NCBI GenBank assembly: GCA_017621075.1
Contig: JAGATV010000052.1
Span: forward strand, 1-64,000
DNA: 64,000 bases
Direction of reading: 5' to 3'
Source of the DNA: Lachnospiraceae bacterium
GTDB taxonomy: Bacteria; Bacillota; Clostridia; Lachnospirales; Lachnospiraceae
Position 1 is the first letter of the stretch, and the number at the start of each line of letters is the position of its first letter. The notes below the pieces were generated by a model that made no database searches, was not told where the DNA came from, and was given only the letters and a program-made list of their open reading frames with translations. This document shows positions 43,701-49,739 of the stretch, in pieces. The position numbers and the translations under genes were made by a program.

Positions 43701-44295
43701 CAATGCCATTGAAGATTACAAGAACTTAATGGAGCGTTTCACTTTCTTGAAGACTCAGCACGATGACCTGGTGGAGGCAGAAAAGACCCTGGAGGGTATC
43801 ATTGCCGAGCTGGATGCAGCCATGAGAAAGCAGTTTACCGAGAAGTTTGCCGAGATCAACAGGGAATTCGACAAGGTATTTAAGGAACTGTTCGGCGGCG
43901 GTAAAGGCACCGTGGAATTGATGGAGGACGAGGATATCCTGGAGGCAGGCATCAGGATCATTGCACAGCCCCCGGGAAAGAAGCTGCAGAATATGATGCA
44001 GCTGTCCGGCGGCGAGAAAGCGCTGACGGCGATTTCCCTGCTGTTTGCCATCCAGAACTTAAAACCTTCTCCGTTCTGCCTTTTGGACGAGATCGAAGCG
44101 GCATTGGATGATTCCAATGTGGGCCGGTTTGCCAAGTATCTACATAAGCTGACAAAGAACACGCAGTTTATTGTCATTACCCACAGAAGAGGTACTATGG
44201 AGCAGGTGGACAGATTGTATGGGATCACCATGCAGGAAAAGGGTGTGTCCACTCTGGTCAGCGTGAACCTGATTGATAAGGAACTGGATGATTAG
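40735..44295 (+). CDS. smc: Chromosome segregation protein SMC
   Basis: Condensin ATPase for chromosome compaction and segregation. 1186 aa: Walker A GPNGSGKSN at 32-40, coiled coil about 165-500, hinge about 510-680 with GGAISGG, second coiled coil about 680-1030, then the C-signature LSGGEKALTAISLLFAI and Walker B FCLLDEIEAALDD. Normal length. It starts within rnc and ends 38 bases before ftsY, a conserved Gram-positive order. Confidence 0.98.
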   Translation: MYLKSIEVQGFKSFANKIVFQFHNGITGIVGPNGSGKSNVADAVRWVLGEQRIKQLRGSSMQDVIFSGTETRKPLSYAYVAITLDNSDHQLAIDYEEVTVARRIYRSGESEYLINGTVCRLKDINELFYDTGIGKEGYSIIGQGQIDKILSGKPEERRELFDEAAGIVKFKRRKAAAQTKLENEKQNLVRVNDILSELEKQVGPLEKQSETAKIYLRKKEELKTLDVNVFLMENNRLREQLSSVEEKYRIASGDLAQTTEKYQGIKEEYERIQEEIESLDATIEQARASLTDTGLLRGKLEGEINVLKEQINSARGSENHLNSRRSTLEAEIASKEEEKSSILAEKDEADRNVQEITETADQVKAELESVQQKIAELNLNIEAGKNTIIGELNQRATIKSKMGRFDSMMEQVNIRKAELNSRLLRAKSDEAAREETIKKLEKEFGKIDGELGTMNEQQAAMELELGDIRESLTHADEKLRENQNLYHQEKSKLDTLTNLTERYEGYGGSVKKVMEQKEKEKGIIGVVADIIKVEKKYETAVETALGGNIQNIVTDDEETAKKMIRYLKDNRLGRATFLPLTSITNPQEFKNPEALKEKGVIGMADEVVQTEKKYKNVAKAMLGRIVVVDNVDNAVKIARKFDYGIRMVTLEGELLVPGGAISGGAFKNNSNLLGRRREIEELEKKIKKILETIDELNAQIVETKSRRNKLRMDVEALKADIQRKTIEQNTARLNIAQARERMEEEAESVQSLKLEEQDIEGKIFEIRESKESIQKELADSEALERSTQEQILVFQKELEEKRALETEAAGKVAEWDLKVEKMRQAQTFKQTNVDRINGELERSNEELKEILTALDDNAKEVERKYHNIEELEKTIAASFDEQNESEHKLKEEIARKEELSAKQKNFFKSREEMSQQMNALDKEVYRLNAQKEKLEESMEAQINYMWDEYEITLSDAASVRNEEMNDLPAMKREIGSLKDQIRKLGDVNVNAIEDYKNLMERFTFLKTQHDDLVEAEKTLEGIIAELDAAMRKQFTEKFAEINREFDKVFKELFGGGKGTVELMEDEDILEAGIRIIAQPPGKKLQNMMQLSGGEKALTAISLLFAIQNLKPSPFCLLDEIEAALDDSNVGRFAKYLHKLTKNTQFIVITHRRGTMEQVDRLYGITMQEKGVSTLVSVNLIDKELDD

Positions 44296-44332
44296 TTGTT
44301 GGGAATCATATCGATTCAGAAACGAGGCGGGT

Positions 44333-45274
44333 ATGAACGAAGAAAAGGTAACGGAAAAGAAAGGATTTTTTGCCAGGCTCAAGGATGGACTTTCCAAGAC
44401 CAGAAATAACATCGTCAGGGGGATTGACTCGGTGTTCAGCGGCTTTTCGGCCATTGACGATGATTTCTATGAGGAATTGGAAGAAATCCTTATCATGGGG
44501 GATATCGGGGTCAATGCCACCACGCAGATTGTGGAGCGTCTGAAAAAGCAGGTGCGGGAACAGCATATCAAGGAACCCTCCGACTGCAAACAGATCCTGA
44601 TCGAGAGCATCAGGGAGCAGATGAAAGTGGATGAGACTGCATATGACTTTGAAAAGGAGCGGTCCATCATCATGGTCATCGGTGTAAACGGTGTGGGCAA
44701 GACCACTTCCGTGGGGAAACTTGCCGGGAAATTAAAGGATAATGGACGGAAAGTGCTGATCGCAGCGGCGGATACCTTCCGTGCAGCGGCGGGAGACCAA
44801 CTGGCAGAATGGGCCAGGAGAGCCAATGTTCCCATGATAGGCGGAAACGAGGGGGCGGACCCTGCCAGTGTGGTGTTCGATGCGGTGAATGCCGCTAAGG
44901 CAAGGGGCGTGGATGTGCTTCTGATCGATACCGCAGGAAGGCTTCACAATAAAAAGAACCTGATGGAAGAATTAAAGAAGATGAACCGCATCATTGACAA
45001 GGAATTTCCCGGGGTGCACAGGGAGAACCTGATCGTGCTGGACGGCACCACCGGACAGAATGCCCTGGTGCAGGCAAGGGAGTTTGGAGAGGTGGCCGAC
45101 CTGACAGGCATCATACTCACAAAGATGGATGGGACGGCCAAGGGCGGCATTGCCGTTGCGATCCAGTCGGAGCTTGGCGTGCCGGTGAAATACATCGGTG
45201 TGGGTGAGACCATTGAGGATCTGCAGAAGTTTGACTCAGATGAATTTGTAAATGCATTGTTTGAAATTGAGTGA
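44333..45274 (+). CDS. ftsY: Signal recognition particle receptor FtsY
   Basis: SRP receptor GTPase that docks Ffh-ribosome complexes at the membrane. 313 aa with a short N-terminal region (KKGFFARLKDGLSKTRNNI), N domain, G1 GVNGVGKTTS, DTFRAAAGDQL, G3 DTAGRLHNKKNLM, DGTTGQNAL, G4 TKMDGTAKGG, and GVGETIEDLQKF. Its DGTTGQ motif is intact, unlike the matching motif of Ffh in this window. The start follows GAGGCGGG. Confidence 0.97.
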   Translation: MNEEKVTEKKGFFARLKDGLSKTRNNIVRGIDSVFSGFSAIDDDFYEELEEILIMGDIGVNATTQIVERLKKQVREQHIKEPSDCKQILIESIREQMKVDETAYDFEKERSIIMVIGVNGVGKTTSVGKLAGKLKDNGRKVLIAAADTFRAAAGDQLAEWARRANVPMIGGNEGADPASVVFDAVNAAKARGVDVLLIDTAGRLHNKKNLMEELKKMNRIIDKEFPGVHRENLIVLDGTTGQNALVQAREFGEVADLTGIILTKMDGTAKGGIAVAIQSELGVPVKYIGVGETIEDLQKFDSDEFVNALFEIE

Positions 45275-47653: not shown

Positions 47654-47986
47654 ATGGAAAAGATTTTTGAACAGGCTCTTTTGTATGATTTTTATGGTGA
47701 GCTTCTGACTCCTCATCAGAGAAGCATTTATGAGGATGTGATCTTCAATGATATGTCCTTAAGTGAGATCGCTGAGGAACAGGGGATCAGCAGACAGGGT
47801 GTACATGATCTGATCAGGCGCTGTGATAAGATCCTGCAGGATTATGAGAGCAAGCTTCATCTGGTGAGACGATTTTCCGAGGCAAAGGAAAAGATCGGAC
47901 AGATCGTGGAATTGACGGAAGATTCCGGTAAGGAGCAGATGCAGCGCATCAGGGAGCTGGCCATGGAACTTATGGAAGAGTGGTAA
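47654..47986 (+). CDS. ylxM: YlxM (UPF0122) helix-turn-helix protein
   Basis: 110 aa, all helical, with a sigma-70 region 4-like helix-turn-helix: LTPHQRSIYEDVIFNDMSLSEIAEEQGISRQGVHDLIRRCDKIL. YlxM accompanies ffh in Firmicutes and has been shown in streptococci to modulate SRP GTPase activity. ffh starts 18 bases after the stop, so both proteins should be made together. Confidence 0.93.
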   Translation: MEKIFEQALLYDFYGELLTPHQRSIYEDVIFNDMSLSEIAEEQGISRQGVHDLIRRCDKILQDYESKLHLVRRFSEAKEKIGQIVELTEDSGKEQMQRIRELAMELMEEW

Positions 47987-48004: not shown

Positions 48005-49372
48005 ATGGCATTTGAGAGTTTGACGGATAAACTACAGAATGTATTCAAGAACTTAAGAAGCAAAGGCCGTTTAACTGAGGAAGATGTCAAGGCTGCCCTG
48101 AAGGAAGTCAAGATGGCACTGCTTGAGGCAGATGTCAACTTTAAGGTGGTAAAACAGTTTATCAAGTCGGTGGAGGAACGTGCCATCGGCCAGGATGTAA
48201 TGAACGGACTGAATCCCGGACAGATGGTCATCAAGATCGTAAACGAAGAGATGACTGCCCTGATGGGAAGTGAGACCACCGAGATTGCCATGCAGCCCGG
48301 CAAAGCCATTACCGTGATCATGATGGTGGGTTTACAGGGTGCAGGTAAGACCACAGCCACTGCCAAGATCGCCGGCAAGCTGAAACAGAAGGGTAAGAAG
48401 TCCCTGCTTGTAGCCTGCGATGTCTACAGACCTGCGGCTGTGGAGCAATTACAGATCAACGGCAGGAAACAGGAAGTGGACGTGTTCTCCATGGGGTGCG
48501 ACCACAAGCCGGTGGAAATCGCCAAAGAAGCGTTGGCTTTTGCGGAAAAGAACGGCCACAATGTGGTGATCCTGGATACTGCGGGACGTCTTCATGTGGA
48601 TGAGGACATGATGCGGGAGCTTCAGGAGATCAAGGAGGCTGTGACGGTCCATCAGACCCTGCTTGTTGTAGATGCCATGACCTGACAGGATGCCGTGAAT
48701 GTGGCAAAGGAATTTGATGAAAAAGTGGGTGTGGACGGCGTCGTCCTCTCCAAGATGGACGGCGATACCAGAGGCGGTGCAGCACTTTCCATCAAGGCTG
48801 TCACAGGAAGACCCATCCTGTATGTGAGCATGGGAGAGAAGCTTTCTGACTTGGAGCAGTTCTATCCCGACCGTATGGCCGGCCGGATCTTAGGGATGGG
48901 CGATGTGCTTTCCCTGATAGAAAAGGCAGGTCAGAACATTGATATCGATGAGGAAAAGAGCCGTCAGATGGCCGGCCGCATGAAGAAGGGGAAATTCGAT
49001 TTTGAGGATTACCTGGAAAGCATGAAACAGATGCGCAATATGGGCGGCCTGTCCAGCATCCTGGGGATGCTGCCCGGCATGGGGATCAAGGCGGATGACT
49101 TAGAGTCCATGATCGATGAGAAGCAGTTAAAACATATGGAAGCCATTGTTCTTTCTATGACAGTGGAGGAGCGAAGGAATCCCAAGCTCTTAAATCCCCG
49201 CAGAAAGCACCGGATCGCTAAGGGAGCTGGTGTGGATATCGCGGTGGTGAACCGTTTTATCAAGCAGTTTGAGCAGAGTCAGAAGATGATGAAGCAGATG
49301 GGCGGCAAAAAAGGACGCGGCATGTTCGGGGGATTTCCGGGCATGGGCGGCAGAGGCAGGTTTCCTTTTTAA
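48005..49372 (+). pseudogene. ffh: Signal recognition particle protein Ffh, interrupted by an in-frame TGA
   Basis: Reads as one 455-codon SRP54 gene if codon 227 is ignored. The TGA at 48683-48685 replaces the glycine (normally GGN) of the conserved DAMTGQDAVN segment; the next codons, CAGGATGCCGTGAAT, continue the family sequence. The first part carries the N domain, G1 GLQGAGKTT, DVYRPAAVEQL and G3 DTAGRLHVDED; the second carries G4 SKMDGDTRGGA, GMGDVLSLIEKA and the methionine-rich M domain. Neither half is a full GTPase. The site is one substitution from GGA. Ffh is essential, so sequence error or readthrough (TGA is followed by C, a weak stop context) is likely. TGA works as a normal stop in neighbouring genes. 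Confidence 0.93.
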
Positions 49373-49493
49373 ACAGCGGGTCCGGTGGGGTCGGGCTGTT
49401 ACTATTTGCAGATATGGACTTTCGCCGCACAAAAGGTAAAAAGTTCTTATCATAGATCATATAATACATTTTCATTTTATGGAGGAAAAAGAA

Positions 49494-49739
49494 ATGGCAG
49501 TTAAGATCAGATTAAGAAGAATGGGACAGAAGAAGGCTCCTTTCTACAGGATCATCGTAGCAGATTCCCGTTCTCCCAGAGACGGAAGATTCATCGAGGA
49601 GATCGGCACTTATGATCCCAGCACAGATCCCAGCACTTTTAAGATCAACGAAGAGCTGGCTAAGAAGTGGCTGGCTAACGGAGCTCAGCCCACTGAAGTG
49701 GTTGGAAAATTATTCAAGGCAGCCGGTATCGAGAAATAA
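49494..49739 (+). CDS. rpsP: 30S ribosomal protein S16
   Basis: 81 aa beginning [42 protein letters not shown], diagnostic of S16. The ATG at 49494 follows GGAGG; the upstream in-frame ATG at 49479 overlaps that site. Its 120-base leader follows the ffh stop. Confidence 0.98.

Follow-up and report, generated by a model that had tools for sequence, protein, structure and literature searches.

The ffh reading frame contains a single internal TGA

We analysed a stretch of 64,000 nucleotides, hereafter the window, from a Lachnospiraceae bacterium (GenBank assembly GCA_017621075.1, contig JAGATV010000052.1, positions 1 to 64,000 of the forward strand). Its ffh gene, encoding the SRP54-type GTPase Ffh of the signal recognition particle (SRP), is interrupted by an in-frame TGA. 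The window lies on contig C11 of a draft genome (G000; 2,358,081 bases in 61 contigs, 87.14% complete, 1.01% contaminated) that is probably a metagenome assembly. At the locus we found the following features, with coordinates counted from the first base of the window:

48005..49372, plus strand: ffh, SRP54-type GTPase and M domain; 455 codons, one of them an in-frame TGA, from the ATG at 48005 to the TAA at 49370-49372
48683..48685, plus strand: in-frame TGA, codon 227 of ffh; glycine in 116 of the 116 other distinct sequences compared
48005..48685, plus strand: upstream open reading frame (ORF) of 226 amino acids; N domain and first part of the GTPase domain
48695..49372, plus strand: downstream ORF from a GTG, 225 amino acids; rest of the GTPase domain and M domain, without the P-loop

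The TGA is the sole stop within the frame, which is open on both sides of it, and the continuity of the reading frame is lost at this one codon. Translated through the TGA, the gene scored 580.3 bits against TIGR00959 (cut-off 473.2), and when the two ORFs were scanned separately the Pfam families SRP54_N, SRP54 and SRP_SPB were all matched. The break splits the SRP54 GTPase profile of 196 positions: the match stops at 125 in the upstream ORF and resumes at 130 in the downstream ORF. Because 227 open codons precede the TGA and 228 follow it, strongly coding on both sides, the stop is not a chance occurrence. The lone in-frame TGA at a conserved glycine, with normal sequence in frame to either side, was confirmed as a real feature of the assembled sequence, as a first-pass annotation made from the window alone had described it.

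Compared with bacterial Ffh proteins (TIGR00959; relatives with solved structures), the gene is alike in the order of its N, G and M domains, in adjoining ylxM and in being accompanied by ftsY and a 4.5S RNA; it differs by the one TGA. The stop codon also sits inside a small perfect inverted repeat, CCTG-A-CAGG (48681-48689), which is too short to carry much weight, though it could bear on the origin of the odd base.

Codon 227 is glycine in all other sequences compared

In an alignment of 119 sequences, which includes the FtsY of the draft itself, duplicate entries and one sequence truncated at a contig end, 118 carried glycine at codon 227 (GGT 81, GGA 27, GGC 8, GGG 2), the exception being the TGA of the window. 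The set of distinct, near-full-length sequences gave the same picture, with glycine in every one of the 116 others. This set was derived from 128 loci matched at E 1e-100, from which six that did not cover residues 1-428 were left out (L040, L103, L109, L116, L159 and L160), leaving 122; removal of identical rows left 117, the gene of the window and 116 others. A single change from GGA, proposed in the first-pass annotation, is possible, and GGA accounts for 29% of the glycine codons in the long frames of the examined G000 stretches. GGA as the ancestral codon is, however, not established: the 15 nearest rows carry GGT (14) or GGC (1), or 12 and 1 of 13 after counting two double-listed genomes once.

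The stop codon is private to one genome

Comparison of ffh among close relatives placed the stop in a single genome. Within the genus, 129 of the 138 genomes matched ffh at E 1e-100, eight of them only partially (G045, G062, G073, G085, G098, G121, G124 and G140) and 121 at near full length. None of the 120 near-full-length genomes other than that of the window had a TGA at codon 227. In a draw of genomes from the class, 142 of 148 matched and none of the 141 others showed any internal stop, the window's own gene being the sole exception. A profile search of 41 genomes yielded 37 above the ffh family cut-off, again with an internal stop in that gene only; the genus, class and 41-genome sets overlap, with some genomes recurring. 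A family-wide search (386 of 397 genomes matching) revealed no stop among the matches listed, and the exact stop site had no match in viral contigs.

The best matches among named genomes, with protein identities of about 90%, were metagenome assemblies under the titles Lachnospiraceae bacterium, Acetatifactor sp. and Blautia sp. No second strain of the species was found: relatives in the genome-contig scan reached at most 91% protein identity and the nearest member of the genus set 93%, and the scanned collections may leave out the genome itself and very near ones.

One further internal stop was observed in the genus. The ffh gene of G074 (locus L138, contig C54:28787-30154, minus strand) has glycine at codon 227 and a TAG at codon 121, where the 116 others compared have lysine; this TAG is private to G074. 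Setting the prompting case aside, internal stops in ffh are therefore rare and scattered in the genus (1 in 120). As a control, dnaG was matched in 130 of the 138 same-genus genomes without any internal stop; a few of these matches were partial, and the model spans about two thirds of the protein.

Three apparent breaks in the same genus were rejected as shared cases. G004 has glycine at the site and its contig ends a few codons later, while the coordinates of the partial genes of G085 and G062 place their breaks at contig ends. Separately, G046 carries a second near-full-length ffh (contig C246:4271-5617) with 72% identity to the query, which is either a genuine second copy or a contaminant. 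In the 41-genome search, nine rows below the ffh cut-off also contain stops (for example G006:C1:1856104-1857072); they are FtsY- or FlhF-like or weaker matches and may overrun gene ends.

Selection on ffh before and after the stop codon

We compared the ratio of non-synonymous to synonymous changes per site (pN/pS) on the two sides of codon 227. Against its 25 nearest distinct relatives, the ffh of the window gave 0.092 for codons 1-226 and 0.083 for codons 228-430; among those 25 relatives themselves the values were 0.091 and 0.082 (standard deviations 0.022 and 0.023). The only codon at which the gene departs from a residue shared by at least 95% of the other sequences is 227; in its 60 nearest relatives the mean number of such departures is 0.60. 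Judged by pN/pS on both sides and by a check of the frame for stops, we detected neither relaxed selection nor further lesions in ffh. Synonymous sites are near saturation even against the nearest relatives, and a very recent loss of ffh would therefore escape this test. The comparison thus rules out an old pseudogene, though not a new one.

SRP partners and neighbouring genes

Three SRP54-type genes were identified in the draft: ffh, ftsY and flhF (the last on contig C4, TIGR03499 above cut-off). A second intact ffh, which the first-pass annotation held would make the gene a true pseudogene, was looked for in the 87%-complete draft and not found. Both SRP partners, ftsY and the 4.5S RNA, are present, and ftsY has no internal stop. 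Since both are present and unbroken, there is no sign of a loss of the SRP pathway. PF02096 (YidC/Oxa1) had no match in G000, which may reflect the incompleteness of the draft. The neighbours of ffh in the window are all open:

47654..47986, plus strand: ylxM/UPF0122 gene (Pfam UPF0122), directly 5' of ffh
44273..45274, plus strand: ftsY, SRP receptor, about 3 kb 5' of ffh; TIGR00064 358.2 bits, above cut-off; the true start may be further in
49479..49739, plus strand: ribosomal protein S16 gene, 3' of ffh; TIGR00002 110.1 bits, above cut-off

Use of TGA and recoding machinery in the draft

To the window we added 18 further stretches of the same genome (346,126 bases in total, 14.7% of the genome). 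In these, TGA ends 48 of the 178 long coding frames, the TGA of ffh included, and the next base is C in 13 of the 48. The reading of TGA followed by C as a special slow stop in ffh is thus not borne out. The prfB gene of G000 keeps its usual frameshift site, CTTTGAC preceded by AGGGA. All 35 tRNA places of the draft were assigned anticodons; none was UCA and no suppressor tRNA was among them, although one could lie in the approximately 13% of the genome outside the draft. No tRNA-Sec exceeded the cut-off in the 87%-complete draft, and ten sub-threshold matches sit at ordinary tRNA genes. A tRNA-Trp with a four-pair anticodon stem has been linked to UGA reading in the available text of PMC13092985; by eye, the tRNA-Trp(CCA) of G000 has a five-pair anticodon stem with G-U as first pair and is not clearly of the four-pair type. 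An Rfam scan of the window at gathering thresholds returned one tRNA only; no search aimed at SECIS elements was made.

With TGA in use as a stop and one in-frame case in 346,126 bases, a reassignment of UGA (code 4 or 25) is not supported, in agreement with the first-pass annotation. Nor is the stop conserved in the relatives examined, as would be expected of programmed readthrough, and readthrough as an evolved device is therefore unsupported.

Candidate errors elsewhere in the draft

We used a coding-potential scan of the same 346,126 bases for comparable lesions. At strict settings it returned three stops with strong coding signal on both sides, namely the ffh TGA and two that by eye resemble gene boundaries. 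A relaxed scan gave 63 candidate in-frame stops, which were read by eye, two of them viewed in context, and none of the others was comparable to ffh. The lower-side coding score of ffh (0.35) was the highest of the 63, the next being 0.24.

Frameshift-like junctions were also collected (34 candidates). By rule, 26 were set aside unseen because in these a start within the overlap has a Shine-Dalgarno-like motif before it, and seven of the eight left were inspected; the eighth, at 45252 of the window, is the junction of ftsY with the next gene according to the ORF list. Five of the seven resemble gene boundaries, one (L143, at 19557) is ambiguous and one (L155, at 14367) is remnant-like. At the latter (contig C15, around 14367, plus strand) a presumably PstS-like phosphate-binding protein ends early, and the adjoining stretch in another frame resembles what we take to be the end of a phosphate transporter or PhoU-type protein. 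This case looks like a deletion remnant or a misjoin and is the only clear broken gene found.

A wrong consensus base is the favoured explanation

Taken together, we consider the TGA probably to be one incorrect consensus base in a functional ffh, arising from a sequencing or assembly error or from a minor-strain or chimeric base. A wrong base call was the first option named by the first-pass annotation. We favour it because ffh is scored as essential in Clostridioides difficile, a distant clostridial relative (as given in the available text of PMC12548448), because the gene is fully conserved apart from one private nonsense base, because its partners are present, and because the sequence is a draft assembly. 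Living cells would then carry an ordinary, intact Ffh working with FtsY and the 4.5S RNA. An error rate as low as one base in a few hundred kilobases would suffice to produce the codon, and the unrelated private TAG in G074 fits a scatter of such errors. Three observations weigh on the other side. The TAG of G074 could equally be a real allele, dnaG showed no stop in any of its 130 matched genomes, and the draft looks clean, with one clear broken gene in 346,126 bases, which is mild evidence against a general load of errors. Our literature search found nothing relevant on premature stops in metagenome assemblies.

The main rival, possible though less likely, is that the TGA is a true and very recent nonsense mutation, present as a transient or minority allele or in cells that survive on little Ffh made by low-level misreading of UGA, usually with tryptophan in place of Gly227. 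Full conservation around the stop is equally expected for a very young allele. UGA was the leakiest stop in Escherichia coli reporters, with tryptophan mainly inserted, and signal was obtained from a reporter with TGA in place of Gly95 (PMC11126739, in the part accessible to us); for Bacillus subtilis, PMC7918605 quotes a TGA readthrough level of 6% (prfB+ strain). According to the portions available of PMC8546722 and PMC8299109, loss of SRP is survivable in Streptococcus mutans, and E. coli survives it with suppressors. However, Gly227 is invariant in the 116 others, and a product with tryptophan at this position is therefore unlikely to function well; the 35 tRNA places hold no suppressor; no relative examined has the stop; and, while SRP-tolerant S. 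mutans has two YidC proteins, the draft yielded no match, maybe through incompleteness. That the TGA is fixed in the species, with the cell living on a few percent of Ffh containing Trp227 and its SRP supply set by leaky termination, we regard as very improbable.

The single-stop genes described by Belinky et al. 2021 (PMC7918605, as far as its available text goes) resemble the present case in that an isolated in-frame stop interrupts a prokaryotic gene under purifying selection. The stop in ffh differs in being found in one genome only and would fail the filter applied there. A programmed or conserved recoding of the codon, be it by readthrough, by selenocysteine or by reading UGA as glycine or tryptophan, we consider extremely improbable. 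The frame does stay unbroken for 228 codons beyond the TGA, but the stop recurs in no relative examined, TGA serves as an ordinary terminator in the 48 frames counted above, the prfB site is normal, neither a tRNA-Sec over cut-off nor a tRNA with a UCA anticodon was among those detected, and the 346 kb contain no other such in-frame TGA. The programmed frameshift of prfB is alike in having an intragenic TGA followed by C; in ffh the reading frame does not change after the TGA, the stop lacks conservation, and the prfB site of G000 lies elsewhere.

Equally little speaks for a split Ffh, in which reinitiation at the GTG at 48695 would yield the second half as a protein of its own that acts together with the first. 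Both ORFs contain recognisable domains, and the AGGA (48687-48690) and GTG (48695-48697) just 3' of the TGA, which had suggested reinitiation in the first-pass annotation, are indeed present. They are, however, ordinary coding sequence, being ffh's own codons for Gln-Asp-Ala-Val; the break lies within the GTPase domain and not at a domain border; a product from the GTG would be missing the P-loop along with all GTPase-domain sequence ahead of profile position 130; and no same-genus ffh is split there, the two pieces in G062 ending at contig ends near residue 250. A dead ffh, replaced by an intact copy that the assembly missed, is just as implausible: the draft is only 87% complete, but it shows no second ffh, the gene bears no signs of decay, and a second near-full-length copy occurs in 1 of the 129 matched same-genus genomes (G046, 3% contamination).

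If the TGA is a wrong base, the case illustrates how little a lone nonsense codon says about recoding or gene loss when it interrupts an essential gene in a draft that has not been verified. Asking whether such a stop is private or shared, whether its gene is decayed or intact, and whether it is isolated or genome-wide offers a quick scheme for sorting these stops. If, on the other hand, the TGA were real and fixed, ffh of this bacterium would be a remarkable example from nature of a cell obtaining an essential targeting factor by leaky termination.
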